Below, piece after piece: positions 1,458-18,706 of a DNA stretch of 29,324 nt. Numbering within the stretch: the first letter of the stretch is position 1; each line of letters opens with the position of its first letter. Location of the stretch: positions 1-29,324 of the IMG/VR virus record IMGVR_UViG_3300032046_000156; one strand, 5' to 3'. Position numbers and translations under genes: made by a program. The DNA is from a virus. The notes below the pieces were generated by a model. It made no database searches, was not told where the DNA came from, and was given only the letters and a program-made list of their open reading frames with translations.

Positions 1458-2089
1458 GGATTACAGGTATAGATTTGGCAAGTGTTCATTCGGCTATTTG
1501 TACCATAGAAGTTCCTGATCCGAAGGATTGGCACGATGATCCTTGGGAGCCGAAGAGTTGGCAAATTGTAGAGCTTGATTGGATAGATGTTCAAGAGGAT
1601 ACCACAGCTGCTCGAATTCAGGCAGCACACGCTTTTCTGCATGTGGTAGAGGAATATAAGCCTGAGCTAACCGTGATTGAGGATTATACGAGGCAGAGTA
1701 AGTCTTTTGATTCTTACAACGCCGCTGAGCTTGGTGGTATGACTAGATTGCTTATCTGGCAAGCACATCATCAAATGCTTTTTGTAGCTCCTATGCGGCT
1801 AAAGCAGTTTTTGCATAATCACGATAGGACACCTATACCCAAGGAAGCCGTGATGAAAGCCGTAGCTGAGTTTTTTGGGTATACGTGTTTGTCCTCAACA
1901 AGGAAGCATCGTGAGGATGCAACGGACGCCTTTGCATTAGCACAGTTAGGTAGGGCATTTTACATATATGAGAAGTATCCGACTATAGTTAAAGCGTCCG
2001 CTGCGGGTGCGATGTGTCTTTGGGCAAATCACAAGCAACGGAAGGTGTTGGTATCATTATGGGAGGATAGGGGTAAGCTTCGCTTATGA
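1454..2089 (+). CDS. RuvC-like Holliday junction resolvase
   Basis: A 211-residue protein with the RNase H-fold acidic tetrad of RuvC: D7 in MRITGIDLAS, E76 in TVIEDY, and D155 and D158 in HREDATDAFALA. RuvC dimers cut Holliday junctions symmetrically; in phages they resolve branched replication and recombination intermediates before packaging. I chose ATG 1454 because it forms an ATGA overlap with the HD gene stop and is preceded by GGAG; an in-frame upstream ATG at 1439 lacks this. The C-terminal 45 residues extend past the usual last helix. The stop overlaps the recA start as ATGA, giving a tight resolvase-recombinase pair. A related RNase H-fold nuclease is a less likely alternative. Confidence 0.85.
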   Translation: MRITGIDLASVHSAICTIEVPDPKDWHDDPWEPKSWQIVELDWIDVQEDTTAARIQAAHAFLHVVEEYKPELTVIEDYTRQSKSFDSYNAAELGGMTRLLIWQAHHQMLFVAPMRLKQFLHNHDRTPIPKEAVMKAVAEFFGYTCLSSTRKHREDATDAFALAQLGRAFYIYEKYPTIVKASAAGAMCLWANHKQRKVLVSLWEDRGKLRL

Positions 2090-3261
2090 AAGATAAACAG
2101 ATGTCGTTAGCAGAGGCCAAGCAGTTTGTAAGGCAGCATATCGAGAAAGAGGCCATAATCAATTTCAAAGAGGAAGATGTGCTGGCTATTCAATCCATAC
2201 CCTCTGGATCAATGCTGGTGGATAAGACTACTGGGGTTGGTGGAATACCTAGAGGACGGATGACGGAACTCTACGGCCTGCCTTCTTCAGGTAAGACGAC
2301 TTTGATGCTGCATACCTGTAAGAATGTGCAAGCAGATGGGCAAGGGATACTTTATCTCGATTTTGAACATGCTTTTAATCCAGGCTATGCTAGGTTGATC
2401 GGTCTTGATTTGTCAAGTGATCGGTTTATTCTTGTGCAGCCTGAGAGTTTTGAGTCAGGTATGGGGATAGCCGAGCTTTACATTAAGAATAATCTGGTAG
2501 GGCTTATTGTAGTGGATTCATTAGCAGCTATGGTGACACAGAAAGAATGGCAAGCTGAGGTGGGTGCTTCTGGAGTTGCAATATTGGCTAAGGCGATGGC
2601 ACAGGAGCTTAAACGTCTTAATAGCATGGTGAAGGATTCCAATGTTGCTATGATTTTTATTAACCATGTTCACGATGTGATTGAGACAGGGTTTGCAAAG
2701 AGGTCTGGGGCGAAGCGGACGACTACGCCTGGTGGCCGGGCGTTGAAGTTCTATGCGTCTTTGCGTATCGAACTGACAATGATTGAGAATATCAAGGGCA
2801 AGGTTATGAATGACGTGACTGGTAGCGTGGATGAGGGGTCTGTTGCTGTTAAAGTCAAGACCTTCATAGCAAAGAATAAGGTAGCAGCCCCCTTTGGCAT
2901 AGGATACTTCTACATCAGGCACAACTACGGTATTGATGAGGTCATGATAGCTGTGGATATAGCCATCAAGCGTAAGTTGATAGAACAGAAGGGGGCACGG
3001 TTTGCGTTGCCCGCTGCTCTTCTTGAGACGGTGGAGGAAGCCAAGTCCATCAACGGGATGGCACAGTTGTTGAGATATTTTATGGATAATCCTGTGATGA
3101 AAGAGCATCTTTTGGAAGAGGTGCGAAAAATTATAAAAATTGGAGGACAAGAAGTTGAAGAAGTTGGAGATGCTGAATCAGATGAGCCCGATCCTGAACT
3201 TAGCGGAGAGGAAAGTAGTTTGGAATCCTTCCCAAGTGAAGTTGACAGCAGCCTTGGGTGA
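2086..3261 (+). CDS. recA: RecA recombinase
   Basis: A 391-residue RecA-family strand-exchange ATPase. Walker A is GLPSSGKTT at 64-72, Walker B is the IVVDSLAAM segment near 142-150, and the DNA-binding L2 region contains TTTPGGRALKFYAS, close to the TTGGNALKFYAS pattern of bacterial RecA rather than T4 UvsX. It would form filaments on ssDNA and drive homologous pairing together with the nearby SSB-like, RuvC-like and SbcCD-like proteins. The C-terminal 35 residues are strongly acidic (EEVGDAESDEPDPE and onward), as in the regulatory tail of bacterial RecA. That tail is encoded in DNA that also encodes the start of the next gene in another frame. The start is an ATGA overlap with the resolvase gene. 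Confidence 0.93.
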   Translation: MKDKQMSLAEAKQFVRQHIEKEAIINFKEEDVLAIQSIPSGSMLVDKTTGVGGIPRGRMTELYGLPSSGKTTLMLHTCKNVQADGQGILYLDFEHAFNPGYARLIGLDLSSDRFILVQPESFESGMGIAELYIKNNLVGLIVVDSLAAMVTQKEWQAEVGASGVAILAKAMAQELKRLNSMVKDSNVAMIFINHVHDVIETGFAKRSGAKRTTTPGGRALKFYASLRIELTMIENIKGKVMNDVTGSVDEGSVAVKVKTFIAKNKVAAPFGIGYFYIRHNYGIDEVMIAVDIAIKRKLIEQKGARFALPAALLETVEEAKSINGMAQLLRYFMDNPVMKEHLLEEVRKIIKIGGQEVEEVGDAESDEPDPELSGEESSLESFPSEVDSSLG

Positions 3262-4198
3262 GGGACAAACAGATGGCAGCGTGAGTTCTCATCCCGTTAT
3301 AGCCCTTGGGGAAGATTTATACAATATTACAACAGAGGCATACGCTGATCTCTGTGGTCTCGCCGGGATACCGACGGCCTATGCGGGAAAAATCCCATTG
3401 GATATGATGATTCCTCATCTGGATTACCTGCTGGAGAAGAATGTGGGTGAGTTGAAGGCTATCTTTGATCCACCGAAGGGTGGTGTCCAGGGAAACGTTA
3501 AGGCTTTTGCCAAAGCGAATGCCATTCTTATTTCACCCTCGTTGGTTTTGGATGCTTTTGAGAAGGGGCTGGTGGTCGGCCACGGGATACATGAGGATTT
3601 GATTGAGTGGCAAGAGCCAATAGTTACTCTTGGACACGTAGTTCTTTCTGAGGTAGCTCCTTTTACATACACGCCTGAGCTCGGTGACGTTAGTGAAAAC
3701 GTTAAAGGTGGTGTGTATTTGAGCTTCTCCCCTATTTGCAAGGAAGCCTTTCAATTGACCACTTACATCTTGAGATTAGTATGCTCTAACGGCATGACAT
3801 CTCCTGATGTGACGTTCAAGTGGCATAGACATCATAATGCGGATGATCCTGCTGAGTGGTTGGTGGCGGCTTCTACTGAGGCAGCCAAGGCAGCACAGAA
3901 GGTTTCAGGGAAATTCTTTGGGACAAGAGATTACATTGTGGCCGGTCATTTAGCAGATGTGTTGGCATCGGTTTGTGATCGTTATCACGTTCAATCCGCC
4001 GTTCGTGAGCTTGTCATGGCACGATTGCTGAATGAGGGTGGCAATACTTTGTTTGATCTTGTGAATGCTATCACGTATGTGGCTTCCAATGTGCCGGAGG
4101 TAGTGGAGCATACGAAGTTGCGTGAGAAGCTCATGATGGTTGCTGGTGCATTAACGGAGCAACCGGAGATATGTCCATCTTGTCATCGTTTGAAGTAA
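3155..4198 (+). CDS. DUF932-like phage/plasmid protein
   Basis: Resembles the DUF932 family of phage and plasmid proteins, most clearly in the core YILRLVCSNGMTSPD, which matches the LRLVCTNGM block of that family. The biochemical role of DUF932 is not established; members often sit in replication or recombination neighbourhoods, as here. The start is uncertain: GGAGG at 3142-3146 is correctly spaced (8 bases) for TTG 3155, while ATG 3170 and ATG 3182 lack a good ribosome site. Any of these starts overlaps the end of recA, by about 107 bases for TTG 3155. The protein ends in CPSCHRLK, a single zinc-knuckle half with no visible partner. The family call is moderately strong. Confidence 0.7.
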   Translation: MKKLEMLNQMSPILNLAERKVVWNPSQVKLTAALGEGQTDGSVSSHPVIALGEDLYNITTEAYADLCGLAGIPTAYAGKIPLDMMIPHLDYLLEKNVGELKAIFDPPKGGVQGNVKAFAKANAILISPSLVLDAFEKGLVVGHGIHEDLIEWQEPIVTLGHVVLSEVAPFTYTPELGDVSENVKGGVYLSFSPICKEAFQLTTYILRLVCSNGMTSPDVTFKWHRHHNADDPAEWLVAASTEAAKAAQKVSGKFFGTRDYIVAGHLADVLASVCDRYHVQSAVRELVMARLLNEGGNTLFDLVNAITYVASNVPEVVEHTKLREKLMMVAGALTEQPEICPSCHRLK

Positions 4199-4823: not shown

Positions 4824-5990
4824 ATGATACGAAAGATACGAATAGAGGGATACCAGAGCCTCAAGAGCGTAGAGGTAGAGCTTGGCCACTTTACGGTGAT
4901 TCTTGGTGAGTCTAATGTAGGCAAATCTGCATTGCTGCGTGCTGTCAAGGCATTGGTGGAAAATCAAACGGGTCTTGATGATTTTCTGACAGTTGGAGCA
5001 AAGGTATGCCAGGTAGAGTTGACTTTGGATGTTGAGGAAAATGTTCTGGGTGTCTTGTGGATAAAGAAAAAGAATGGAACTCAATATCTTGTTCATAGCA
5101 CAGCCGGCGACTCTATAGATAAGTTTGGAAAAGGTGTAGGTGTGCCTGTTGAGGTGACCAATGTTTTGAGGATGGAGCGGATAGAGTTTGCACCGGGGAT
5201 ACGTTTTGCACCTAATTTTCACGATCAATTCTCCACGCCATTTTTACTTGAGGAAACAGGCGGTAGGGTGGCAAAGATGCTGGGGGAGATGTCAGGTGTG
5301 AATTTGCTTTACAGGGCAACAGCTGAGGCTAATGTGAGGGCGAAGAGATTTCAACAGCTCGTGGAGTCACATGTCATAACTCTTGAGGCTTTGAAAGAAA
5401 AGTTGGCAACATATGAGTATATCCGTACTACTGGACCAAGACTTCAAGAGGCAAAGACACTACTGGCAGATGTTGAAAAAGATGCTAAGGCCCTTGCCTT
5501 GATGACTAAGTTCAGCATTGAGTGGATGAGCTGGCGGGGTACTAGCGATATGGCACATGTCCAGCAAGAGAGGCTGATGTCTATTGATGATGCTATATTG
5601 CCTTTAGAAGAGGCTTTGATGAATTTAGCCGATGTGAAGTTGATGAAAGGTGATTTGTTAGGCTGGTTGAAGATATCCCTTTATGCTAAGGATTGCGGTA
5701 AGGCTAAGGAGAAGATGTCAAAGCTCAACGCAGTTTCTTTTGGCCCCATTGAGGAACAAGCAAATGAGATTTTTGTGCTTCGTAAGACACGGGATGCTTG
5801 GAATAATGCACTTCATGCTGTTGATTATTGTGTAAAGTATGTTAAGGAGTTAAAGAAAGAGGCGGATCAAAGATTTCTGTGCTTGCAGTCTTTGGAAAAA
5901 GAATTGAAGATATGCCCGTACTGTGGTGCACTCTTGCATAAAGAAGGGGATAATTGTGATAGGGGTTGGGGAGATATAATAACTCCCTAG
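4824..5990 (+). CDS. Rad50/SbcC-like ATPase, N-terminal half ending at a hook
   Basis: The 388-residue protein begins like SbcC/Rad50/SMC ATPases (IRKIRIEGYQSLKSVEVEL), has Walker A GESNVGKSA at 28-36 and a Q-loop candidate near residue 135 (DQFSTPFLL). It then becomes mostly helical with charged heptad-like stretches (about 165-360), and ends with CPYCG at 364-368, matching the CxxC zinc hook that joins Rad50 coiled coils. The protein stops 20 residues after the hook. It has no ABC signature, Walker B or His-loop, which every active family member needs. These are present in the product of 10541-11191. It lies directly before the SbcD-like nuclease, its expected partner in processing DNA ends. 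A self-contained RecF-like protein is unlikely without Walker B. Confidence 0.75.
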   Translation: MIRKIRIEGYQSLKSVEVELGHFTVILGESNVGKSALLRAVKALVENQTGLDDFLTVGAKVCQVELTLDVEENVLGVLWIKKKNGTQYLVHSTAGDSIDKFGKGVGVPVEVTNVLRMERIEFAPGIRFAPNFHDQFSTPFLLEETGGRVAKMLGEMSGVNLLYRATAEANVRAKRFQQLVESHVITLEALKEKLATYEYIRTTGPRLQEAKTLLADVEKDAKALALMTKFSIEWMSWRGTSDMAHVQQERLMSIDDAILPLEEALMNLADVKLMKGDLLGWLKISLYAKDCGKAKEKMSKLNAVSFGPIEEQANEIFVLRKTRDAWNNALHAVDYCVKYVKELKKEADQRFLCLQSLEKELKICPYCGALLHKEGDNCDRGWGDIITP

Positions 5991-5998
5991 AGGCAATT

Positions 5999-6997
5999 AT
6001 GAAACTTTTACAACTTAATGACCCGCATCTTTCTGATAAAGCACCTTTACGTAGGACGGCGATCTATTTGGAAGAAGTGTTTGCAAAGCTGTATGAGGTG
6101 CGTGATATTGCTAATAGTTTGAATGTTGATGCTTTGGTGATCCCCGGAGATTTGTTTCATCAGAAGACAGCCACTAGGGTATCTTATTTTCTTACCATGC
6201 GTGTGCTGAAGTGGATAGCCGATGTTGGCAAGCCCATACTCGTTCTTCCAGGCAATCACGATCTTACTGACAATAATTTAAGTTCTTTGATCAAGCAGCC
6301 TTTAGGAATGGCACGGTTTATGTCTAATGTTATCTTCTTAGGCCCATATGATACGGAGTGGAAAGGTTATCATTTTTGGGGCGTGCCAGGGGTGATGACG
6401 GAATTTACAGTAGATAAGTTTTTTACTAAAACCCCGTGGCAGGATACAATTGTGGTGGCACATGGACCAATAGTGGTAGATGAGCGGCTTTATCCATACG
6501 AGGTAATTCGAGCAAAGGATATAGCCGGGAGAGCTTTTCTTGTTTTGTATGGTCATGTTCATACATCGATAGAACCCGTTATAATTAGCAGGCCGGCACC
6601 TTTTAGCCCTACGATGTTTGTGAATCCCGGTGCAATATCACGGGGTACAATAGGCGTAGATGATTTGAAGCGGACGCCCCAGGTGGCTATCATTGATATT
6701 GATGAAGAGCAGATAGGTGATCTGCTCGATGTAGTTGATGCTGATAAGATTTCTATGGGTGTAAAGGTTAGATATGTGCCCTTGAAAACAGCAAAACCTG
6801 TTGAAGAGGTATATCTATTGGAAGAGGTGCAGACAGAGAAAGAGCAAGCACAGTCTGTGGATGAGTTCCTGAGTAATCTTGTTGAAGCAAAAGTTGCAGT
6901 TGTAAGTAGAGAGTCTTTAGCCAAGGCAATAGATGAAGCCTCTGCACCGCAGGATATTCGAGATTTGGCTAGAGTAGTCTTAGAAGAGACAAATTGA
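5999..6997 (+). CDS. SbcD/Mre11-like nuclease
   Basis: A 332-residue metallophosphoesterase with the full set of calcineurin-type motifs: D8 and H10 (LNDPHL), D51 (PGDLFH), N86-H87-D88 (PGNHDL), H155 (VVAHGP), and H186/H188 (YGHVHT). With two Mn ions, Mre11/SbcD proteins act as dsDNA exonuclease and ssDNA/hairpin endonuclease, gated by the Rad50/SbcC ATPase. ATG 5999 has AGAGG 5 bases upstream; an in-frame ATG at 5966 lies inside the previous gene and would add an uncharacteristic leader. The last 90 residues carry acidic helices that may bind the ATPase coiled coil. It follows the Rad50-like N-half by 8 bases, consistent with one complex. Confidence 0.88.
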   Translation: MKLLQLNDPHLSDKAPLRRTAIYLEEVFAKLYEVRDIANSLNVDALVIPGDLFHQKTATRVSYFLTMRVLKWIADVGKPILVLPGNHDLTDNNLSSLIKQPLGMARFMSNVIFLGPYDTEWKGYHFWGVPGVMTEFTVDKFFTKTPWQDTIVVAHGPIVVDERLYPYEVIRAKDIAGRAFLVLYGHVHTSIEPVIISRPAPFSPTMFVNPGAISRGTIGVDDLKRTPQVAIIDIDEEQIGDLLDVVDADKISMGVKVRYVPLKTAKPVEEVYLLEEVQTEKEQAQSVDEFLSNLVEAKVAVVSRESLAKAIDEASAPQDIRDLARVVLEETN

Positions 6998-6998
6998 A

Positions 6999-7826
6999 AT
7001 GCGAATATCTTACTCAACATTACGATTGCTAGAGGCGTGTCCGTATCAATATTATTTGAAAACGGTAGAAGCTCCTGAGCGTCCTGACGCACGTAATTTC
7101 CTTGTTGGTGCAGTCTGTGATAATCTGCTTCAGGATTGGTATCGGGCAGGATGTTTACCCGGGTGGATGATGTCCCATGCTGAAGAATATTTTGAACGTT
7201 ATATTCGTAGAAATAGAATAGTGTGGCGGAAGCTTACACAGGAGACTTTAACTAGAGAGAAAGCAGTTGATGATCGGGCTGTGTTGTGGGGCAGGGTTGG
7301 TAAGGCTGTGCCTAAGATAGAGTCTACTATTGTCTTGATGGGACTCAATGATGCTAAGAATGTTGTTGCCCAGCGGCAGATATCTTTACCTATGCCTAAG
7401 ATAGAAGAGCACCAACTTACGGGGAAGTTGGATTTGTGGGATCGGGGCAAGCGTGATCTTTATGAGATGAAGGTGACTCAGGATGATGCTCGATTTGATC
7501 CAGATCAGTTGAAGTTTTATGCTCTTCTCATATGGCTTCAGGATCGAGAGGATGTTCATAATCTTTATTTCTTTGCACCTATTCGAAAGCAGCGTATAGT
7601 TCCCGTGCCATACAATAGAGCCGATCTTAGGATTGTTTTGGAGCGTTGTGCGAGGGGGATTTATTTGATAGAGAAAGGCAAGTTTGAACCCGTTGGCCGA
7701 GTTCAACAATGCCATTCTTGTGAGTTTAGGATGTCGGTATGCCCTTGTTGGGCTAATGCCACAGTGGTTTATACTGAACAAGGGGGCAAGAAATTGGCTT
7801 CCTTTGATTCTGCGTCAGGAGGATAA
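6999..7826 (+). CDS. Cas4/AddB-like PD-(D/E)XK nuclease with Fe-S cluster
   Basis: A 275-residue RecB-family nuclease. The N-terminal SYSTLRLLEACPYQYYL segment is typical of the PDDEXK_1 group; catalytic residues are in LTGKLDLWD (about 142-150) and YEMKVT (about 155-160), with a following Q in DQLKFYALL. Four cysteines are placed as in the Cas4/AddB/Dna2 iron-sulfur fold: C14, then C238, C241 and C248 (QCHSCEFRMSVCPCW; C250 is an alternative). Such proteins usually have ssDNA exonuclease activity. It starts one base after the SbcD-like stop, so a joint role in resecting ends is likely. The start at 6999 is the first ATG. Confidence 0.8.
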   Translation: MRISYSTLRLLEACPYQYYLKTVEAPERPDARNFLVGAVCDNLLQDWYRAGCLPGWMMSHAEEYFERYIRRNRIVWRKLTQETLTREKAVDDRAVLWGRVGKAVPKIESTIVLMGLNDAKNVVAQRQISLPMPKIEEHQLTGKLDLWDRGKRDLYEMKVTQDDARFDPDQLKFYALLIWLQDREDVHNLYFFAPIRKQRIVPVPYNRADLRIVLERCARGIYLIEKGKFEPVGRVQQCHSCEFRMSVCPCWANATVVYTEQGGKKLASFDSASGG

Positions 7827-7828
7827 AG

Positions 7829-8131
7829 ATGATGGATTGGCTTACGAAGCAAAAGGTAGCTAGGAGGCTTTTACAAGAGATTATTGAGATTGGTGAAGTA
7901 GCATCCATACTGGATATACAGGTTGATCTCCGCAATGGAATCTGCACTATTTCATTTACTTCTGTGAAGCCGAAGCAAGAACTCACGGATGTTGATCTTT
8001 CAGATTTGATACACCTTCTAATCATGAATCAGGACACCTTTGGGGCAAATGTTCAGAAAGGTTTGAAGGAGAAGCTGATAGAATTCCGAAAAAGTATGCG
8101 GGAAGCCGGGAGGTCTAGTGTTAGTGTTTAG
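7829..8131 (+). CDS. Hypothetical protein, 100 residues
   Basis: A real gene by context: its ATG lies 6 bases after an AGGAGG ribosome site, and the gene sits between the Fe-S nuclease and a coiled-coil protein. It is mostly helical at the N-terminus (WLTKQKVARRLLQEIIEIGE), then has a strand-rich middle (VDLRNGICTISFTSVKP) and ends in a basic helix. There are no cysteine clusters, signal peptide or membrane span. No family is recognised. Its position suggests a helper in the recombination block, which is only inference. Confidence 0.6.
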   Translation: MMDWLTKQKVARRLLQEIIEIGEVASILDIQVDLRNGICTISFTSVKPKQELTDVDLSDLIHLLIMNQDTFGANVQKGLKEKLIEFRKSMREAGRSSVSV

Positions 8132-8140
8132 GAGGGTAAG

Positions 8141-8386
8141 ATGGCTGATTTAGCTCTTGAGTTGAAGAAGCGTAAAGAGGAATTTGAGGCTGCACGGGAT
8201 AAGCTTAAGACAGCTGAGGCGAATGCAACTGTGGCTGATAGGCAGCTTGCTGAGATGGTGAAGGTAGCTAAGGCAGAATTTGGTGTTGAAACTCCAGAGG
8301 AGCTTGCGTTGTTGATACAATCAAAAGAAGCACAGGTTCAGGGTACACTTAAACAGGTCGGGGATATCTTGAACGCTGTGAAGTGA
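8141..8386 (+). CDS. Small coiled-coil protein
   Basis: An 81-residue protein with an AGGAGGG ribosome site. Residues 1-50 are a highly charged, alanine-rich helix (LELKKRKEEFEAARDKLKTA) with heptad spacing that predicts a coiled coil. A short second helix follows (ETPEELALLIQSKEAQVQ). No known domain is recognised. It is expressed from the same block as the nuclease and clamp genes, so it may be an oligomeric adaptor or a replication accessory protein, but the sequence alone does not say. Confidence 0.6.
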   Translation: MADLALELKKRKEEFEAARDKLKTAEANATVADRQLAEMVKVAKAEFGVETPEELALLIQSKEAQVQGTLKQVGDILNAVK

Positions 8387-8426
8387 GGGAAATATGGATA
8401 GAAAAAGTAAGGATTGGAGGAGACAG

Positions 8427-8828
8427 ATGGAATTTGAGATAGAGGTAAATGTTGGTGCACAGGTGTACGGTCGGCTGACCGAGAAAGGTGTAAAGGTGGC
8501 AAAAGATAAAGGTGAGGCGGTGAAGATTGAGGATATTGCTGGGGCGTTGTCTGTGTTTTCTTTGCAAATATCTACAGATCAGAAGACATTGCAGCCGGTG
8601 GGTGTAATGATATACTTGCCTACAGCAGGTACGCCTATACATATGTCTTGTGTGGAGTTTGAACTTTTGGTCAGGATGTATGAGCGGGGTAGGGTCAGAT
8701 TGGTTCAGGCTGTTGGGCAATCAAAGAAGGTGTCTAAGAAGCCAGATCAGTTTGAGCTTGGTTTAGGCAATGTGCCTAGTTCAGGTAATCTGGTAGAAGA
8801 CCTTCAGGCTGGGGGTACACAAGAATGA
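8427..8828 (+). CDS. Hypothetical protein upstream of clamp, possible clamp-binding peptide
   Basis: A 133-residue protein of unknown family. ATG 8427 has GGAGGAG about 6 bases upstream; an alternative in-frame ATG at 8394 with a weaker GAGGG would add 11 residues. The body is strand-rich (EFEIEVNVGAQVYGRLTEKG and LQPVGVMIYLPTAGTP). Near the C-terminus, after a basic linker, is QFELGL at residues 108-113, which fits the relaxed hexapeptide QxxLxL that binds the bacterial beta clamp. The stop overlaps the clamp start as ATGA, so the two are translated together. The clamp-binding idea is inference from a short motif. Confidence 0.6.
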   Translation: MEFEIEVNVGAQVYGRLTEKGVKVAKDKGEAVKIEDIAGALSVFSLQISTDQKTLQPVGVMIYLPTAGTPIHMSCVEFELLVRMYERGRVRLVQAVGQSKKVSKKPDQFELGLGNVPSSGNLVEDLQAGGTQE

Positions 8829-9952
8829 TTGAATTTGAGGTTAAGAAGTTTGTCCTTCAGTCTCTCCTTGAGAAGGCATTTGCTGTTGTACCTACTAAGG
8901 ATGTGATGCCTATCCTTAAGAACTTTCTATTGAAGTTAGAGCCTCCTGATCGGATTACAGTTGTATCTACGGATCAGGCTTTGACTTTGGTGGCAGGAAC
9001 AACAATGGCAAAAGTAAACGTAGCAGCACAGGTTTTGTTTCCTGGCGCAAAGCTTCTGGATATTGTGCGTTCTGCTGAAGATGCGGTTATGTTTTTTAAG
9101 ATAGACGGACTTACAGCGGAGATTAAGTGTGCCAAGTCTGTTGTTGGCTTGAAGCTGGCGGATTCTAAAGAGTATCCGATGATACCGGATACGGAGATTA
9201 TGAATTTGACAGATATCAATCGGCAGGCTTTCTTGGCAGCTGTGTCTCGTGTGTCTTCTGTGGCACCTACTGATACTTACCGTCCTCAGTTGAATATGAT
9301 CAGTATCACAGGTGGCAAAGTTCAAGCTTCAGACGGTGTTAGGTTTCATCAAGCAGATATTCCATATGCCGGGAGTCTTCAGATTCCTGTCAAAGCCACT
9401 ATTGATCTCCTGAAGTTTCTTAAGATGACTGAGGATGAGTTTGTACGTATAGGAGATACTGCGAACCATGTGGTGTTCAAATTTGGATCAGAAACGTTCA
9501 TAGCTTCGAAGCCAAATGTCGATTTTCCTGCACTTGATAAGGAGTTGCTTCAGCCGGCACTTATTACCAATGATCAGTGCTGCACGGTAGATCGGCAACA
9601 GTTGATTGATGGTATTAGGAGGGTGCGTGTGGCGGCGGATGAGGAAACGAATCTGGTGTACCTTTATCTTAAGGGAAGCAATATGACCTTGCGAGCAAGG
9701 GATAAGTTTGGGAATTATGCCATTCAGGAAATTGAGGTGACATACCTATACGGCGAGCGGCAGCTGGGTGTTAATTGGAGTCTATTTTTGACTACGTTGC
9801 ACTCTATTTCCTCTCCCACAGTGAGTATCTATCTTGGGATGGATACCAAGGCAAAGTTGTCCTCCTTGTTGCTCAAGGAGCAGGGATTTGTAGCTGTGCT
9901 TTCACAGATGCGTGTGAAAGAAGAGAAGCAGCAGAAAGTGAAGAGCGAATGA
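8825..9952 (+). CDS. dnaN: DNA polymerase III beta subunit (sliding clamp)
   Basis: A 375-residue protein with the length and three-domain layout of bacterial DnaN (about 366 residues). Family-like landmarks are KDVMPILKNFLLKL near residues 25-38, LADSKEYPMIPD near 107-118, and SDGVRFHQADIP in the second domain. It would form a dimeric ring on dsDNA that tethers the polymerase and other enzymes. The usual C-terminal LMPMR-like end is replaced by a charged tail (MRVKEEKQQKVKSE), although VLSQMR just before it may be the remnant of that element. No polymerase gene is in this window. The start and stop are both ATGA overlaps with neighbours. Confidence 0.9.
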   Translation: MIEFEVKKFVLQSLLEKAFAVVPTKDVMPILKNFLLKLEPPDRITVVSTDQALTLVAGTTMAKVNVAAQVLFPGAKLLDIVRSAEDAVMFFKIDGLTAEIKCAKSVVGLKLADSKEYPMIPDTEIMNLTDINRQAFLAAVSRVSSVAPTDTYRPQLNMISITGGKVQASDGVRFHQADIPYAGSLQIPVKATIDLLKFLKMTEDEFVRIGDTANHVVFKFGSETFIASKPNVDFPALDKELLQPALITNDQCCTVDRQQLIDGIRRVRVAADEETNLVYLYLKGSNMTLRARDKFGNYAIQEIEVTYLYGERQLGVNWSLFLTTLHSISSPTVSIYLGMDTKAKLSSLLLKEQGFVAVLSQMRVKEEKQQKVKSE

Positions 9953-10353
9953 CGATACAAAATGGCAATGAGAAGCTAAAGAAGAGTTCCGTTTCTATCA
10001 CGGTTAGTTCCTCAGATGATCTTATACCAGATTCCTTGTGTCATCTGGTATTCCGGCGTTTTTCTACGAAGACGATGGGGTATGGTGAGGGCTTGATCTT
10101 TGAATTCATCATTCTCAAGGGGGATTACGCCGGGCGGGAGGTGACGGGTATGGTGACTCGCAAAGAGCCTCTCACAGCAAAAAGCAAGGAATGGGTGTGG
10201 ATTAAGGCTTTGCTTGGGCGAGAGCCTCTTGATGGTGAGAGGGTGGATGAAGAGATACTTGTTGGCAAGGAAGCATTGGGGCATGTTGTCCAAGTAGTGA
10301 AGCGGGCAGGGACATACAATCGTGTGGATAAGCTGATCCCTGTAAGGAGATGA
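9949..10353 (+). CDS. DUF669-like phage protein (possible ssDNA-associated)
   Basis: A 134-residue protein whose ATG overlaps the clamp stop as ATGA; an in-frame ATG further upstream lies inside dnaN and is not used. The pattern LIFEFIILKGDYAGREVTGMV, then KALLGREPLDGERVD, then a 'GKEALGHVVQV...G.YNRV' ending, resembles phage DUF669 and similar OB-like proteins found beside recombinases and SSBs. I make this comparison from memory and it is weak. No enzyme motifs are seen. A role in replication or recombination is suggested by location between the clamp and the Rad50 C-half. Confidence 0.5.
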   Translation: MTIQNGNEKLKKSSVSITVSSSDDLIPDSLCHLVFRRFSTKTMGYGEGLIFEFIILKGDYAGREVTGMVTRKEPLTAKSKEWVWIKALLGREPLDGERVDEEILVGKEALGHVVQVVKRAGTYNRVDKLIPVRR

Positions 10354-10356
10354 GTG

Positions 10357-10551
10357 ATGTTTGAGGTTATCACTAAAGGAGATGTTGAGAGTACGGTTCA
10401 AGGGCAGTTCTTTCATCTTGATCCCAATCGGAGGTACAGGGCATATGCCACACACGTTTTTGAGGGTAGTACCGCCTTCTTGGTAGCTGATCATGTGTCA
10501 GGTGACTTTATGTGGCTAAATATGGAATTGTTCAAATCATGTGTCAGCTGA
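10357..10551 (+). CDS. Small hypothetical protein, 64 residues
   Basis: The ATG at 10357 has AAGGAG 7 bases upstream. The product is strand-rich (QFFHLDPNRRYRAYATHVFE, then STAFLVADHVSGDFMWLN) and may be a small beta-barrel. It has no recognised family. The end of the gene lies across one copy of a 22-base direct repeat and stops inside the second copy. If one 46-base repeat unit were deleted, this frame would run on into the Rad50-like C-half gene, which is reported as a separate observation. Confidence 0.6.
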   Translation: MFEVITKGDVESTVQGQFFHLDPNRRYRAYATHVFEGSTAFLVADHVSGDFMWLNMELFKSCVS

Positions 10552-10558
10552 CTTTATG
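10491..10558 (+). repeat. 22-base direct repeat pair at a gene junction
   Basis: Two copies, 10491-10512 and 10537-10558, each begin TCATGTGTCAG and end TGACTTTATG. They differ at one base (G at 10502 versus C at 10548) and are 46 bases apart. Both encode the peptide HVS(G/A)DFM, the first in the frame of the 64-residue protein and the second in the frame of the Rad50-like C-half. The second copy contains that gene's candidate starts (GTG 10541 and ATG 10556) and the stop of the previous gene. This looks like a small tandem duplication. Confidence 0.8.
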
Positions 10559-11191
10559 GAATATTCTATTGTTGCTGATGAGTTTGAAAAGGTCATGAAC
10601 GATTTCCTTATGGAGGTCGGGAAGGCTAGAGCTATATCTGATCAAGCTAAGCAAAGTCAAAAGGATATGGAGCAAGCACAGGGGCTTCATACTAAGTATG
10701 AGTTGGTCTCTCTTTTGTTTCAGAATATCTCTGAGCAGCAGCAAGCTGTTCTTATTGAGAAGATAGAGAGATTGGTTAGCTTGGGACTGAGATCAGTGTT
10801 TGAGGAGGATATGACATTCATCATAAAAATGCAGTCAAAAGCCGATCAGATGAATGCCTCATTCCGCTTGCGTGATGCAACGGGGCTGGAGACAGATATA
10901 ATGGATGCTAAGGGTGGTGGGGTAGCTGTTTTGGTTGGTGTGCTGTTGCAGATCGTGATGCTGACCCTGATGCGAGGTCGCTTGGCACAGGTTTTGTTTC
11001 TTGATGAGAGTTTCAGCCATGTATCTGATGAGTATGTTCCGAGGGTGGCTGTTCTGATGAATACTCTTGCCAATAAGCTAGGCATGCAGATAGTTTTGGT
11101 TACCCATCAGCCGGAGTTTTCAGAGGATGCAGATAAAGTATACCGGTTTGCCAAGAAGGATGGGCAGACTGTGGTAACTAAGATAAAGTGA
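10541..11191 (+). CDS. Rad50/SbcC-like ATPase, C-terminal half
   Basis: The 216-residue protein (211 from ATG 10556) looks like the C-terminal part of an SbcC/Rad50 or related ABC ATPase. It opens with a helical, coiled-coil-like stretch to about residue 80, then has a signature-like segment AKGGGVAVLVG (123-133), Walker B VLFLDESFSHV (151-161) with catalytic Glu, and a His-loop LVTHQPEF (H189). It has no Walker A. It would complete the ATP site with the Walker A half encoded at 4824-5990, probably as a heteromer. The start lacks a clear ribosome site and is probably coupled to the previous stop at 10549-10551. A stand-alone regulator is a less likely alternative. Confidence 0.75.
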   Translation: MSADFMEYSIVADEFEKVMNDFLMEVGKARAISDQAKQSQKDMEQAQGLHTKYELVSLLFQNISEQQQAVLIEKIERLVSLGLRSVFEEDMTFIIKMQSKADQMNASFRLRDATGLETDIMDAKGGGVAVLVGVLLQIVMLTLMRGRLAQVLFLDESFSHVSDEYVPRVAVLMNTLANKLGMQIVLVTHQPEFSEDADKVYRFAKKDGQTVVTKIK

Positions 11192-11228: not shown

Positions 11229-14069
11229 GTGAACTTAAAGTCACCTTTACAGATTAAGGAGTGGTTGGGCAATCATCAGCACGAGTTTGATATTCCGTGT
11301 GCTTGGTATGGTGATGAGCCAAATACGGTCAATGTTAAGGCATGGGAGGCGTATTCGCTGCGACATCTTGTGGCAGCGGCGTTTGGATACTCCTTTATGG
11401 GTAATCATGCTATCCCTCTTCTCTATGAGTTGTTTAATACAGCTCATCCCGGCAGTTGGTTAGCGGAGCGTATGTTTTTCACGAATAGCCATAGAGAAAC
11501 TGCTTTGCTAAAGAGATATGGGATGCCTTTCTTCTCTCTTGAATCTAAGCACGCAATGGGTGCATTCCATACGGTTGGGTTTACTGTAAATTGGATGCCA
11601 CAGGTTTTCAACGTGCATAAGATGTTGAAGTTTTCGGGTATACCGGTGTGGCGAGAGATTCGTGAACAAATGGAAGAGCCTTATCCCTTGATTCTCATGG
11701 GGTCAAATGCCAGCTGCAATCCGTTTGCTATGAAGTCTATGATTGATGTTTTTTGGCTGGGGGAGATAGAGGATGAGCCTGATAATCCAGGTTTCAAATC
11801 TGTTTGGTCAGATATAGATGATGCAATTCAAGCAGGGACTTTTTATACTAGGGAAGGTAGGGAGCAGTTGCTGCATCTTCTTTCATCTAAGTATGATTTT
11901 TTATTCATTCCCAAGATGGTTCATACTTTATGGCAGGTGGATACAGTAGGCTGTGGGGCAAACGAGAAGGAATATTTGGCTGTTGCGACGGTGCAGGGCT
12001 GGGCGGGGACACATGCTGATTGTAAAACAAGCTTCAAGAAGCATTATGTTCATGATTTGAACAACGCACAGCCACTTTTAGCACCTTTCGTATCTTATCT
12101 TGATACATCAATGGGGATAGGCAGTGTTGAGTCATCTCGTGGTTGTCCAGCACATTGCGTCTTTTGTTCATCGGGGCTGCGGCAAGGACCCTTTAGGGTG
12201 CGTGATGAGGATGAGCTGGTGGCGGCCTTTAAGATTAACGTTAAAGGTACAGGAACGAATAATGTAGCTCCGATTACTTTGGAGTATGGGGATTTTCCAA
12301 CAAAGAAGCGTTTGTTTAAGAGGATTGTGGAGGAGTGTTGTGATCAGCTTGCTTTGCTGTCTATTCGCACAGATGTATGGGAGAATGATCCTAATTTTGC
12401 TCAGGTGTTTACGCTTGGTGCTGGGGAGCAGGTAGCCCTCGCTGTTGAGGGAAACTCCCAGCGTTTGCGTACAGCTATGTCCAAGGGTTTAACTGAGGAT
12501 ATGATTTTGAATGCGGTGAATCATACGATAGCCGCAGGCATTCAGAGACTTAAGGTTTACTTGATTTCCGAGCTTCCCGGTGAAGTGGATGCGGATTTAG
12601 ATGAGATTATGATTTTGGCACGGAAGGTAGATGAGATACGTCGTCAGTATCAAAGTAAGATTCAGATTACCTTTTCTTGGACGCCTATGAATGTTCAAGC
12701 ATATACGCCTGTTCAGTGGTGTGCTGTTGGTGATCTTGATCAGAAGCGGCTATACGATCTCTTCAAGCCGCTGACTCAGGAGTTGAATATCACTTGTGCA
12801 TATGGAAAGAAGGCAGAGCGTAACATCAGGTATTTTATTCAATTGTGTGAATTAGCTGATTCCCGAATCTCTGATATGCTGTTGGAGGTGCTGGATGAGG
12901 TGGACACCGAATATCAGGGTGGTATTAGGAGAAATGTTTACGCTGTTTGTGATCGTAAATTGAAGGAGAGGGGCTTGTCTTGGCAGACATACTTTTGTGC
13001 CAAATCCTATGATTACGTTTTTGATTGGGATTGCATCTCTTTTGGGGTGTCCAAGGATTATCTTATACGGCAGCATGAGCTCATGACCAATGCTCTGCTC
13101 AATATGAATCAGGTGAATGCCCGTCCAGGCTATCTGACTAAGTTTGGCAAGTGCAATTATGGGTGTGATGGTTGCGGTGCTTGCTCTACTAAGGAGGAGA
13201 AGCTCCGTACCTTGTCATTATGGGATCAGGGGGATGATATCGATTTGTCAGAGACCAAGGTACGGGATGAGCGGTCGATAGCTGTGAAGTACCGTTTTAA
13301 TGCTTGGGTATCTTCAGGGAAGAGGTTTGTGACTAACGGCCATTGGAAGACGGCTATTCGTCGTGCAGCATATATGGCAGAGATTCCGATATCAAAATAT
13401 TCGATTAAGTTGGCTTCCGATGCACAGGATTACAAAGCTTGGACGGCGGGTAAGGAGCTTGTTGAGTTTGGGCTGACCAAGGAGATGAACTTGGGTGCAA
13501 AGGAAATGTCAAAGCTCCTTAATTTTAATTTGAGAGGGATAACCCTTTTGGATGGTGAGTTGTACGGGACGGACACAGAGCCTCTCCGTAAGACAATTGG
13601 TGTTTATTGGTATCAAATGGAAATTCAGGAGCGTGAGGATGTAGTACGCCGGGTGGCACACGACTTTCAGGAGCGTAAGCCGAAGACCTTGACGTTACTG
13701 CATGATGTTCATCGCAGGGGAATACGTCATGACGAGTATGATCTTTATAAGATGGTCAAGGATATCTGGTTTGCGAAGGAAGGCACACGGCTGGTGATGC
13801 ATATTTTGATCACAGGTAAAGCTACGCCATATGACGTTTATCGATGTCTGTTTGATAGGAAGTCTCCGGTAGTGTATCGATTCCCGGCAATACTTTTAGA
13901 TAGCTATGTGCGTATTGATGGATCGCAGGAGGGGTTTTACAGTACGGCATGTGAGGAGTGTGAGATGGTGCTCCCTGTTAATCCATTGGGACAGAGTACT
14001 TTCAAGGATCGTGAGTTGCCCTTGTGTCCGAAGTGTGCATCTCGCAAAAGGGGTGATTTCATTGCCTGA
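11229..14069 (+). CDS. Large radical SAM protein, TIGR03960/DUF2344-like
   Basis: A 946-residue protein starting at GTG with AAGGG and AGG upstream. Residues about 100-210 resemble the B12-binding-like N-domain of TIGR03960 proteins (FNVHKMLKFSGIPVWREIRE, then LILMGSNASCNP, then FWLGEIED). The radical SAM cluster motif is C306-x3-C310-x2-C313 (GCPAHCVFC). A second cysteine set is C642, C646, C649, C652 (CNYGCDGCGAC). Residues about 685-800 resemble DUF2344 (KYRFNAWVSSGKRFVTNGHW). The C-terminus adds a zinc ribbon (CEEC...CPKC). The family is of unknown function in bacteria and may modify RNA or protein; I infer none here. It precedes thymidylate synthase, so a nucleotide or base-modifying role is also possible. 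Confidence 0.75.
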   Translation: MNLKSPLQIKEWLGNHQHEFDIPCAWYGDEPNTVNVKAWEAYSLRHLVAAAFGYSFMGNHAIPLLYELFNTAHPGSWLAERMFFTNSHRETALLKRYGMPFFSLESKHAMGAFHTVGFTVNWMPQVFNVHKMLKFSGIPVWREIREQMEEPYPLILMGSNASCNPFAMKSMIDVFWLGEIEDEPDNPGFKSVWSDIDDAIQAGTFYTREGREQLLHLLSSKYDFLFIPKMVHTLWQVDTVGCGANEKEYLAVATVQGWAGTHADCKTSFKKHYVHDLNNAQPLLAPFVSYLDTSMGIGSVESSRGCPAHCVFCSSGLRQGPFRVRDEDELVAAFKINVKGTGTNNVAPITLEYGDFPTKKRLFKRIVEECCDQLALLSIRTDVWENDPNFAQVFTLGAGEQVALAVEGNSQRLRTAMSKGLTEDMILNAVNHTIAAGIQRLKVYLISELPGEVDADLDEIMILARKVDEIRRQYQSKIQITFSWTPMNVQAYTPVQWCAVGDLDQKRLYDLFKPLTQELNITCAYGKKAERNIRYFIQLCELADSRISDMLLEVLDEVDTEYQGGIRRNVYAVCDRKLKERGLSWQTYFCAKSYDYVFDWDCISFGVSKDYLIRQHELMTNALLNMNQVNARPGYLTKFGKCNYGCDGCGACSTKEEKLRTLSLWDQGDDIDLSETKVRDERSIAVKYRFNAWVSSGKRFVTNGHWKTAIRRAAYMAEIPISKYSIKLASDAQDYKAWTAGKELVEFGLTKEMNLGAKEMSKLLNFNLRGITLLDGELYGTDTEPLRKTIGVYWYQMEIQEREDVVRRVAHDFQERKPKTLTLLHDVHRRGIRHDEYDLYKMVKDIWFAKEGTRLVMHILITGKATPYDVYRCLFDRKSPVVYRFPAILLDSYVRIDGSQEGFYSTACEECEMVLPVNPLGQSTFKDRELPLCPKCASRKRGDFIA

Positions 14070-15213: not shown

Positions 15214-15247
15214 AAGACTATGAAATTTTGACTTGTGTTTTGAAAAA

Positions 15248-15265
15248 GGATAAGCTTTTTTATCC
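15248..15265 (+). other. Small hairpin before the ribonucleotide reductase gene
   Basis: GGATAA (15248-15253) pairs with TTATCC (15260-15265) around the loop GCTTTT, in the 74-base gap ahead of the reductase. The stem is AT-rich with only two G-C pairs, and no T-run follows it, so it is not a convincing terminator. It ends 7 bases before the AAAAGGAGG ribosome site and may weakly affect translation. Confidence 0.25.
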
Positions 15266-15287
15266 CATTTGGAAAAGGAGGCGATTT

Positions 15288-17942
15288 GTGGCTGTGACTG
15301 AGCAAGCCTTGCAATTACTCCAAGCAAGGTATTTTCTGAAGGATGAAACAGGGATACCTGTTGAAGATGAGGCCGCATTGTGGCAGAGGCTATCCAAGGC
15401 GATAGCGGCGGCAGAAGATACAGCTAAGAAAAGAGATCAGCGTCAAGAGGAGTTTTATACCTATTTATCAAGTCAGATGTTCTTGCCTAATTCTCCAACA
15501 ATTATGAACGCAGGCAAGAAGGGCGGACAACTTTCTGCATGTCAGCCTGCTGGTTCTTTTGTTTTTATGTATGATGGGCTGAGGCGGATAGAGAATCTTG
15601 GTTCATCAATAACTCGTGGTTATGGGGAGATAGAGTCTAAAATTACACGAGAGGTTTCAGAACTTGCTTGTGTAGAAACAGATATTTTTCCGCCGATCTA
15701 TTTCACACCAGACCATGAAATTAGAGTAGGAAGTAACCATAATGCACGTATTGGAACGGGAAGTGTGATTACACGTAAGGATGTGGTTTTGCATCAATTT
15801 GGACATCACCCAAAGTATTTTCTTCCTGCGGGTTCCCTTCTTAGGGGTGATTTATTGTATGTGCCTTTGTCAAAGTCATCTGTGCCTGTAAAGTATGCGG
15901 ATGGGGTGGAACTTACAAAGGAAATACTTGTTCTTTCATCTTGGTATGTTGGTAATGGTTGGCTTGGTTGGTATCAAACAAAATCTGGCCGTAAGCCAGG
16001 AACCATCTGTATTGCTTTAAGAGTAGGGCGTGATGGACAGGAAATACCAGAGTCTCTCCAAAATGCAATAAATTTTCTTGGTGTTCATTTTTCTTTGGAG
16101 AAGAATGGTCGTATAGTTCGTATTCATTCTTCAAAGATGGCACGTTGGCTGTATGCTCAATTTGGAAAAGGAGCACTTACTAAGCACATACCTGGATGGC
16201 TGTTTGATGTTTCCCGTGAGGATATGGAAGTATTTCTTGATGCATATCCAGATGGTTGGAAAGTTGGGGATAATCGCACCTGGTCAAGTACGAATGAATC
16301 ATTGTTTTGTAGTCTTGTTGTATTGAATTTGATGTGTGGGCGTAGAGGGCATTCATCTAAGGTAAAGAGATCAAAAACTGAGTTTCCCGGCACGAAGGCT
16401 AATGTATGGTATTTTCTTTGGTCTAAAAATACGGTGAGAAAGCACAAGGTATCTGATTTACGGGGCGCAAGTGAGCCATATGCTTTTGCTCGTGTTAAAC
16501 GGGTAAATTTGGAGAGGTGTGATACTCCTGTGAGGGTGTACAACTTTGAGACCACATCTCATCTTTATAATGCACTTGTGGAGGTTCATAATTGTTTTGT
16601 TGTTCCGGTGGAAGATAATATACAAGCCATCTTCAATGCAGTGAAGTTTGCGGCGTTGATTCATAAGACAGGGGGCGGCACGGGTTTTTCTTTCTCTAAG
16701 CTACGCCCGGCTGGGTCTATTGTGAATACCACCAAAGGCACGGCTTCAGGGCCTGTAAGTTTTATGCGGGTCTTTGATGCAGCAACAGGGGCGATCAAAC
16801 AGGGAGGTGTGCGTCGAGGGGCTAATCTTGGTTGCCTGAATGTGACTCATCCTGATATAAGGGAGTTTGTGACCTGTAAGCAGGATTTGTCCTCTTTCTC
16901 AAATTTCAATATTAGCGTAGGGGTCACTGATGTTTTTATGCGTGCGGTAGAGAGCAATGGCACGTATGATTTGGTTGATCCTTTTACACACCAGCGTACC
17001 GCACAGGATGCTCGTGAGGTGTGGGAGATAATTTGTCAAAGCATACACAAATGCGGTGATCCCGGGATTCTATTTCTTGATGAGATCAATCGGCACAATT
17101 TTGCACCTTGGCTAGGCAAGATTCATACCACTAATCCTTGTGGAGAGCAGCCTTTGCATGATTGGGGCTCTTGCAATTTAGGGAGTATTGATGTGTCAAG
17201 GATGCTCAAGGGTAGCCAGCTTGATTATGATGTACTCAAAGACGTGACACAGATGGCTGTTCGCTATCTGGATAATGTTATTACCTTGAATTCTTATCCA
17301 ATAGTGAAGATTAAGAATAAAGCCATGCTCTGTCGCCCAATAGGGCTGGGCATTATGGGCTGGGCTGATTTGCTTATCCGTATGGGTATTGATTATGATT
17401 CTGCGGCGGCTCTTGATTTGGCTGATGATTTGATGCGTCATTTGCTTCAATATGCACGAGAGGCGTCCAAAGGACTTGCTGAGGAGAAAGGACCATATCC
17501 CGGTAAAGAAAATGGGCATGCGAGAAATGCGACGTTGACCACGATAGCACCTACAGGCTCCCTGTGCATTATTGCCAATTGTTCTTCAGGTATAGAGCCT
17601 CTTTTTTCTGAGGAGTACACGAAGAAGATTATGGAAGGGGCTATCAACGTGGAGTTCAAAGCCCCTGATTCTAAGGGGAAGAAGATAAAGACTGCACATG
17701 ATATTCCAGTATCGGCTCATGTTCGTATGCAGGCAGCGTTTCAGAAGCATACGGATAATGCTGTGTCTAAGACAATCAACTTGAATGCCGGGGCAAAGGT
17801 TTCACAGATAGCCGATGCTATTTTCATGGCTTATGAGCTCAAGTGTAAGGGGATAACTTTGTTTCGTGATACTAGCAGGCAAGGTGTGCTTACCAAGAAA
17901 GCGGTGCAGAGTGAGTGTGATAGCGATCGGTGTTTAATTTAA
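15288..17942 (+). CDS. nrdJ: Class II-like ribonucleotide reductase, intein-interrupted
   Basis: The extein matches vitamin B12-dependent reductase: FLPNSPTIMNAG, then QLSA-C-FVVPVEDN, then AALIHKTGGGTGFSFSKLRP, then NPCGEQPL with the thiyl-radical cysteine at 17139-17141, and GSCNLGSI. Reduction of ribonucleotides to deoxyribonucleotides feeds phage replication. The C-terminus carries CDSDRCLI, a CX4C redox pair that would deliver electrons. GTG 15288 follows AAAAGGAGG by 6 bases and is preferred to the upstream TTG 15228. The precursor is 884 residues; after removing the 351-residue intein the mature enzyme is 533, short and without an N-terminal ATP cone. No NrdB-like subunit is in the window, which fits class II. 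Confidence 0.88.
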   Translation: MAVTEQALQLLQARYFLKDETGIPVEDEAALWQRLSKAIAAAEDTAKKRDQRQEEFYTYLSSQMFLPNSPTIMNAGKKGGQLSACQPAGSFVFMYDGLRRIENLGSSITRGYGEIESKITREVSELACVETDIFPPIYFTPDHEIRVGSNHNARIGTGSVITRKDVVLHQFGHHPKYFLPAGSLLRGDLLYVPLSKSSVPVKYADGVELTKEILVLSSWYVGNGWLGWYQTKSGRKPGTICIALRVGRDGQEIPESLQNAINFLGVHFSLEKNGRIVRIHSSKMARWLYAQFGKGALTKHIPGWLFDVSREDMEVFLDAYPDGWKVGDNRTWSSTNESLFCSLVVLNLMCGRRGHSSKVKRSKTEFPGTKANVWYFLWSKNTVRKHKVSDLRGASEPYAFARVKRVNLERCDTPVRVYNFETTSHLYNALVEVHNCFVVPVEDNIQAIFNAVKFAALIHKTGGGTGFSFSKLRPAGSIVNTTKGTASGPVSFMRVFDAATGAIKQGGVRRGANLGCLNVTHPDIREFVTCKQDLSSFSNFNISVGVTDVFMRAVESNGTYDLVDPFTHQRTAQDAREVWEIICQSIHKCGDPGILFLDEINRHNFAPWLGKIHTTNPCGEQPLHDWGSCNLGSIDVSRMLKGSQLDYDVLKDVTQMAVRYLDNVITLNSYPIVKIKNKAMLCRPIGLGIMGWADLLIRMGIDYDSAAALDLADDLMRHLLQYAREASKGLAEEKGPYPGKENGHARNATLTTIAPTGSLCIIANCSSGIEPLFSEEYTKKIMEGAINVEFKAPDSKGKKIKTAHDIPVSAHVRMQAAFQKHTDNAVSKTINLNAGAKVSQIADAIFMAYELKCKGITLFRDTSRQGVLTKKAVQSECDSDRCLI
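15540..16592 (+). mobile_element. Intein with degenerate LAGLIDADG endonuclease
   Basis: An in-frame 351-residue intein inside the reductase. It starts with Cys1 (CQPAGSFVFMYDGLRRIENL), has a block B T56-x2-H59 (FTPDHEI) and ends ALVEVHN before +1 Cys (CFVVPVED). Penultimate His350 and terminal Asn351 are intact, so protein splicing should work. The middle carries two weak LAGLIDADG-like segments: SSWYVGNGWL (intein 134-143) and FLDAYPDGW (232-240). The first has Asn where the catalytic Asp is expected, so the homing endonuclease may be impaired. Its insertion point is the catalytic cysteine of the reductase, a conserved site that tolerates no imprecise loss. Confidence 0.88.
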
Positions 17943-18525: not shown

Positions 18526-18706
18526 GACGTTTTTCATTGTGCTTATAGGACATTCTTTGATCTGCGATGTTGGGAGTTTTCTCCTTGGTCGTTTTACGAC
18601 TGTGGATTGGAAGCTTGCTATACCGATTGTGATATTAGGTGCCGTGGTTGTAACGTTTCTATTAGAGAAGCCGTGGAGAAAAGGAGATAAGAATGCTCAC
18701 TCTTGA
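18512..18706 (+). CDS. Small two-span membrane protein
   Basis: A 64-residue protein with two hydrophobic segments: about residues 5-25 (KTFFIVLIGHSLICDVGSFL) and 33-51 (WKLAIPIVILGAVVVTFLLE). The C-terminus is polar and basic (KPWRKGDKNAHS). It overlaps both the protease gene and the dnaX gene by 14 bases each, which suggests translational coupling. No family is recognised. Confidence 0.55.
   Translation: MRLFKTFFIVLIGHSLICDVGSFLLGRFTTVDWKLAIPIVILGAVVVTFLLEKPWRKGDKNAHS

Follow-up and report, generated by a model that had tools for sequence, protein, structure and literature searches.

A Rad50/SbcC-type ATPase divided at the zinc hook, probably with a third coiled-coil partner, in phages and Bacillota

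Introduction

The Rad50 proteins of P. furiosus, M. jannaschii and T. maritima and the SbcC protein of E. coli share an ABC/SMC-type head with Walker A, Q-loop, Walker B and H-loop motifs, a coiled coil carrying a CxxC zinc hook, and a gene for an Mre11/SbcD partner. A normal Rad50 chain has a single CxxC, at the apex of the coil, and both the serine of the signature motif and the aspartate of the D-loop are important in the canonical enzyme. The usual view of Rad50 is of an unbroken chain, with the hook linking its two lobes, and models of ATP signalling from head to rod assume this continuity. Phages have their own versions: T4 gp46 and gp47 (phrog_77 and phrog_100) form an SbcC/SbcD pair encoded near replication and recombination genes, in which gp46 is one chain of 560 aa. 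Separately made N- and C-segments of Rad50 co-assemble as a head in the crystal constructs 1f2t, 1f2u and 1ii8 (chains A and B in 1f2t and 1f2u), but these were engineered. Phage Pol III alpha and the RNA polymerase subunits of jumbo phages are other enzymes divided between genes, and the passages found on SbcC/SbcD in the same source call the pair near-universal and mention no split (PMC7824862). We found no literature on a split SbcC or Rad50 in a search limited to open-licence papers, so that a subscription paper could exist.

Here, we describe a natural split of this kind, which affects a different enzyme from those just named. The window, by which we mean the whole analysed stretch of 29,324 nucleotides (IMG/VR record IMGVR_UViG_3300032046_000156), had been interpreted in a sequence-only reading as holding a Rad50/SbcC-type ATPase broken at the hook into two genes 4.5 kb apart. 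Relative to Rad50 and SbcC, the module has two chains in place of one, a degenerate signature (xxGGG, not LSGGE), a D-loop with VS in place of LD, a very short C-terminal coil, and an extra gene for a small coiled-coil protein, which we call S. The three corresponding PHROG families are listed as unrelated, with the C-half untied to Rad50 and S without a function.

Results

Gene layout in the window

The window is viral, and carries RuvC, RecA/UvsX, clamp, clamp-loader, terminase and portal genes; scans for tRNAs and Rfam families gave no match in it. Upstream of the module lies a RecA/UvsX-like recombinase gene (2086..3261, + strand; phrog_97, 1.5e-57), and a recA neighbour is also seen beside host versions of the split module. 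The N-half (388 aa; 4824..5990, +; phrog_16465, 8e-27) is followed, 8 nt past its stop, by the ATG at 5999 of an SbcD/Mre11-like metallophosphoesterase gene (5999..6997, +; PF00149 at 1.9e-11, over the cut-off, and TIGR00619 sbcd at 3.7e-9, below it), in whose product NDPH, GDLF, GNHD, HG and GHVH motifs can be recognised by eye. The gene for a PD-(D/E)XK nuclease of Cas4/RecB type (6999..7826, +; PF12705, 2.6e-15) comes next; we treat it as a neighbour in the gene run and make no claim that it is a subunit. By inspection, a PD-(D/E)XK-like ORF also follows SbcD in the uncultured jumbo genome LR745208. The gene for S (81 aa; 8141..8386, +), with an AGGAGG ribosome site just upstream, precedes the C-half (216 aa; 10541..11191, +; phrog_15167, 2e-33), the GTG start of which is uncertain, with an ATG at 10556 as a possible alternative. 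All genes separating the two halves lie on the same strand, and the gap measures 4.55 kb, in agreement with the spacing first proposed.

Several neighbours deserve a remark in their own right. Directly after RecA, positions 3140-4198 encode a 352-aa phrog_1362 protein of unknown function with a C-terminal CPSC, and directly after the C-half, positions 11229-14069 encode a radical-SAM-like protein of 946 aa without a PHROG match. This phage also encodes a bacterial-type beta sliding clamp (8825-9952) and a gamma/tau-type clamp loader (18693-19835); in this window, as in LR745208, the clamp gene separates S from the C-half.

The two products are complementary halves of one Rad50 head

The N-half carries a Walker A motif (GESNVGKSA, residues 28-36) and a glutamine, Q135, at the Q-loop position. 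Its AlphaFold model has long helices from residue 146 to 360. CPYC follows at residues 364-367, and the chain stops 21 residues past the last cysteine, in agreement with the Walker A, Q-loop, coiled coil and terminal hook given in the sequence-only reading. The C-half opens with a helix (residues 2-87) and contains a GGG signature region (125-127), an LFLDE Walker B (152-156), an HVS D-loop (160-162) and an H-loop histidine, H189. The earlier description of this half held for Walker B, the H-loop and the absence of Walker A, while the signature region, although present, proved degenerate. That description had also counted the lack of hook cysteines in the C-half as an anomaly. It is not one, given that the single apex CxxC of a normal chain is kept by the N-half, and the inferred departure from normal dimerisation geometry is only partly right, as the hook is retained at the N-half C-terminus.

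When single sequences were compared with Pfam, scores were modest (SMC_N 0.0085 for the C-half). Profiles built from relatives were far more informative: the C-half profile matched Rad50 structures first, namely their C-segments (3qkr_B, E 9e-16), and the N-half profile matched Rad50 N-terminal regions first (5f3w_B, E 1.1e-15). The AlphaFold 2 model of the C-half (pLDDT 95) had as its best solved Foldseek match 1f2u_D, a Rad50 C-segment, and that of the N-half (pLDDT 79) matched the Rad50 N-segments 9a9j_A and 1f2u_C/A, so that the best solved matches to this Rad50 head fold are Rad50 half-chains. Because the profile and fold matches are complementary, we conclude that the two products are complementary halves of one Rad50 head. 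The N-half profile also detects T4 gp46 (4e-6), and the SbcD-like profile detects gp47 (5e-10).

These assignments give an identity to existing families. PHROG 16465 (“exonuclease”) is the N-half family (53 of 53 members match) and PHROG 15167 (“ATPase”) the C-half family (61 of 61), while 15 of the 34 members of PHROG 18563, of unknown function, match S. Defence ATPases (Lamassu LmuB, GajA and PtuA) were considered as candidates and rejected, the PADLOC matches being weak, partial and mostly confined to the Walker A region or the coil; no defence gene set was seen beside the operons that were read.

The split recurs and its position is conserved

When each half from the window was used as a single-protein query, scans of viral contigs found nothing. 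By tblastn, distant relatives were found in the isolate phages Magritte, vB_BboS-125, Tunturi_5 and Mvi-JY20 and in LR745208, and two scans of viral contigs with three-member alignments yielded 93 loci, in which a profile survey identified 79 C-half, 73 N-half, 69 SbcD-like and 63 S ORFs. The non-redundant set from viral contigs and phages comprised 67 C-halves and 61 complete N-halves. Since Rad50 structures top the profile matches and the split recurs in dozens of genomes, chance resemblance can be ruled out; the search of phage genomes for the same split, suggested in the sequence-only reading, thus finds it in dozens of distant phages.

All 61 complete N-halves have a GxxxxGK[ST] Walker A, with G28, G33, K34 and Q135 invariant in the alignment. 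In 56 of them a CxxC lies 7-25 residues from the C-terminal end, which implies that the gene ends at the zinc hook; the remaining five, Magritte's among them, have no clear CxxC. N-halves without any CxxC (Magritte type) occur at L003:8001-9053, L101:10001-11062, L095:9989-11074 and L072:9764-11053, where the hook seems to have been lost while both halves persist. Among C-half relatives, D155, E156 and H189 are invariant (61 sequences) and the Walker B DE pair is present in 65 of 65 parsed. An LSGGE-type signature with its serine is not found: nearly all have xxGGG (GGG in 56/65), a change of serine to glycine. Likewise, the LD of the D-loop is replaced, mostly by HVS or something similar.

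The two halves travel together. An N-half was detected in 22 of the 23 C-bearing records of at least 95 kb, and a C-half in 27 of 30 N-bearing records, the three exceptions being records of 31-64 kb. Within the surveyed loci, no ORF was matched by both N- and C-profiles, and none thus has both ATPase lobes in one polypeptide. A complete Rad50 gene elsewhere in the phage genome would have refuted the original proposal; none was found in 27 related phage and viral records with the full SbcC profile, phrog_77, which returned only separate pieces; the window itself represents no more than 29 kb of its phage.

The distance between the halves ranges from adjacency to tens of kb. In the window, the SbcD-like gene lies beside the N-half only, as had been noted, but elsewhere it is found between N and C, after C, or fused to N. 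Three phage records encode the SbcD-like nuclease and the N-half, in this order, as one protein of 707-772 aa ending in a CPTC or CPLC hook (L045:6678-8987, L048:7120-9243 and L056:7015-9333). An Mre11/SbcD partner is thus present in the surveyed loci, and its relatives show metal-binding motifs, with GNH in 46 of 55 and a GHxH-type motif in 43 of 55. One contig labelled as an uncultured archaeon has the order recA-N-D-C, D being the SbcD-like gene (L106:841-6471); its D groups with a phage sequence, so the contig may be a virus.

A small coiled-coil protein accompanies the halves

S was identified in 29 of 30 module-bearing records, although a few records show none, and it was not found in T4 or SPO1. 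Its subfamilies (from host operons, firmicute phages, actinophage-type records and phages with the fusion) align with one another by profile at E-values of 2.6e-5 to 2e-11, against 0.0079 or worse for coiled-coil controls. The window's S matched the actinophage-type profile at 1.4e-6 and the firmicute-phage profile at 2.2e-5 (coil controls 0.07 or worse), but failed as a single sequence to reach the fused-type group, and its own family link has a single-sequence basis. Pfam and PHROG matches that would make S a scaffold or a tropomyosin were set aside as generic coil matches.

The lengths of the coils suggest what S might do. The N-half coil varies from about 130 to 350 residues, whereas C and S stay short throughout, the C coil being constant, which rules out a rod made simply of two matching strands. 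In the shortest forms the C coil (~60 residues) plus S (~75) equals the N coil in length, and for this reason we propose that S stands in for the distal descending arm. S is thus inferred to be, probably, a third subunit packed on the coil, most likely replacing the missing distal part of that arm. From sequence alone, a conserved break in mid-S (GVxPEE) would also allow a hairpin form.

It is also possible that the Rad50 pair is real and that S is something separate, such as an accessory factor of DNA replication that happens to be encoded nearby. S is a plain coil with no named family, its gene adjoins that of the sliding clamp, or is close to it, in the window and LR745208, it is scattered in actinophage-type records, and in the window and many of those records it is not adjacent to C. 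Against this, in 19 phage loci S ends no more than ~120 nt from where the C-half begins, and the two often overlap; moreover, in every host operon that we read S sits between N and C with no clamp gene present. We therefore regard an independent S as unlikely, while giving it more weight than any other alternative.

A chromosomal operon in Bacillota

A genome scan revealed the order recA-D-N-S-C-rny, surrounded by cinA, ymdB and miaB, in the chromosomes of Shouchella, Halalkalibacterium, Halalkalibacter and Seinonella; in Peptoniphilus the order is recA-D-N-S-C-miaB. Of 299 genomes sampled from the order of S. miscanthi (Shouchella), 18 carried a C-half, and the operon arrangement was present in 10 of 10 further carrier loci that were read.

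A one-piece SbcC was found in 262 of the 299 genomes. It went undetected in 13 of the 18 carriers and in 24 of the 281 non-carriers (odds ratio 28, p 1e-9, uncorrected for phylogeny). Two candidates were scored per genome in these searches, which can only inflate SbcC absence among non-carriers. A second check of the absence with phrog_77, in which just some of the candidates were scored, gave matches that we took for ORFs of SMC length, ABC ATPases or the split genes, with two unclear in one genome (G052). One of the 13 carriers without a detectable one-piece SbcC, the Bacillales genome G174, has a 504-aa SbcC-like ORF (C1:1628846-1630291) that covers much of phrog_77. Sutcliffiella and Brevibacillus fulvus have a normal SbcC, and their split copies group with phage copies. 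In a tree of SbcD-like proteins, host copies form one group (96/76) beside phage sequences; its branches are long, it leaves out the window's own D, and we use only that single host clade from it. Taken together, it appears that the split module replaces the normal one-piece gene in some bacterial chromosomes.

The same data bear on the idea that the phage halves poison or regulate host SbcCD by inserting into host Rad50 dimers. Phages are known to inhibit host SbcCD, as in the case of N15 TelN (PMC12624138), and the changed signature and D-loop could yield a dead partner. However, the module brings an SbcD that looks intact and that some phages even join to the N-half, and the chromosomal operon occurs in bacteria that mostly have no one-piece SbcC to poison, which leaves this idea very improbable.

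Discussion

Sequence and fold, a conserved split point, co-occurrence and synteny, fusions and host operons all support a Rad50/SbcC-type ATPase that is split at the hook. We are confident, though short of certain, that this is a split, probably three-part, Rad50-type ATPase, whose halves assemble in trans and work with the Mre11-like nuclease; the assembly, the activities and the role of S are inferred. The N-half would supply Walker A, the Q-loop, the ascending coil and, at its far end, the zinc-hook cysteines, and the C-half the base of the descending coil, the signature, Walker B, D-loop and H-loop. Two N- and two C-chains could then form an engaged Rad50-like dimer sandwiching two ATP molecules, in which the hook could still join two N-chains via zinc. 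The ATP-bound dimer may gate the adjoining SbcD/Mre11-like nuclease at DNA ends or hairpins, and the processed ends would feed RecA-dependent recombination. That the module works like Rad50, within the same superfamily, is inferred from anatomy and context. As the signature serine and the D-loop aspartate are both replaced, its handling of ATP may differ, and because these residues and the one-chain architecture are lacking, we do not file the module as a single-chain Rad50/SbcC.

The sequence-only reading overlooked the small third partner, the altered signature and D-loop and the operon in bacterial chromosomes. A further possibility, which we consider evenly balanced between right and wrong, is that a natural three-part Rad50 (N, S and C, with altered signature and D-loop chemistry) forms an Mre11-Rad50 class of its own, one that spread among phages, moved into Bacillota chromosomes next to recA and there took the place of canonical SbcC, leaving the cell with no other Rad50. 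If a hook-cut Rad50 serves as the cell's only SbcC, as it apparently can, then the covalent link between the lobes is dispensable. The module would also offer a natural system in which either arm, the hook and the third coiled-coil subunit can be varied independently. With it, three PHROG families acquire a function, as does a run of poorly named genes that neighbour recA in alkaliphilic bacilli.

Could the halves instead be single-domain fragments or remnants of ATPases, with no relation to each other, functions of their own and only generic ABC similarity to Rad50? The weak single-sequence family scores point that way, as do N and C genes that are sometimes tens of kb apart. Nevertheless, both profiles match Rad50 first, neither half alone holds a full ATP site, the co-occurrence of N and C is near-obligatory and their ends are conserved at the hook, and we give this explanation scarcely any credence beside that of one Rad50-type enzyme divided between genes.

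Split-intein proteins occur in phages and the window's ribonucleotide reductase looks intein-bearing, yet two ways of restoring a single chain, rejoining through a split intein or a mistake of assembly or sequencing that broke an intact gene, can be dismissed for practical purposes. An N-half tail of 7-25 residues past the hook leaves no space for part of an intein, a judgement made without an intein profile; moreover, kilobases separate the genes, and independent genomes, isolate phages included, show the split again. That reductase large subunit (15228-17942, 904 aa) has a PHROG match only in its second half (452-902), and residues ~150-450 look like an intein insertion. AP2 domains occur in homing endonucleases, and homing-type elements are known to split other phage genes. 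In Bacillus phage vB_BboS-125, an AP2-domain gene (L004:11035-11607) lies between the N-half and S, which is only a hint that the split in this lineage arose via an AP2 homing element.
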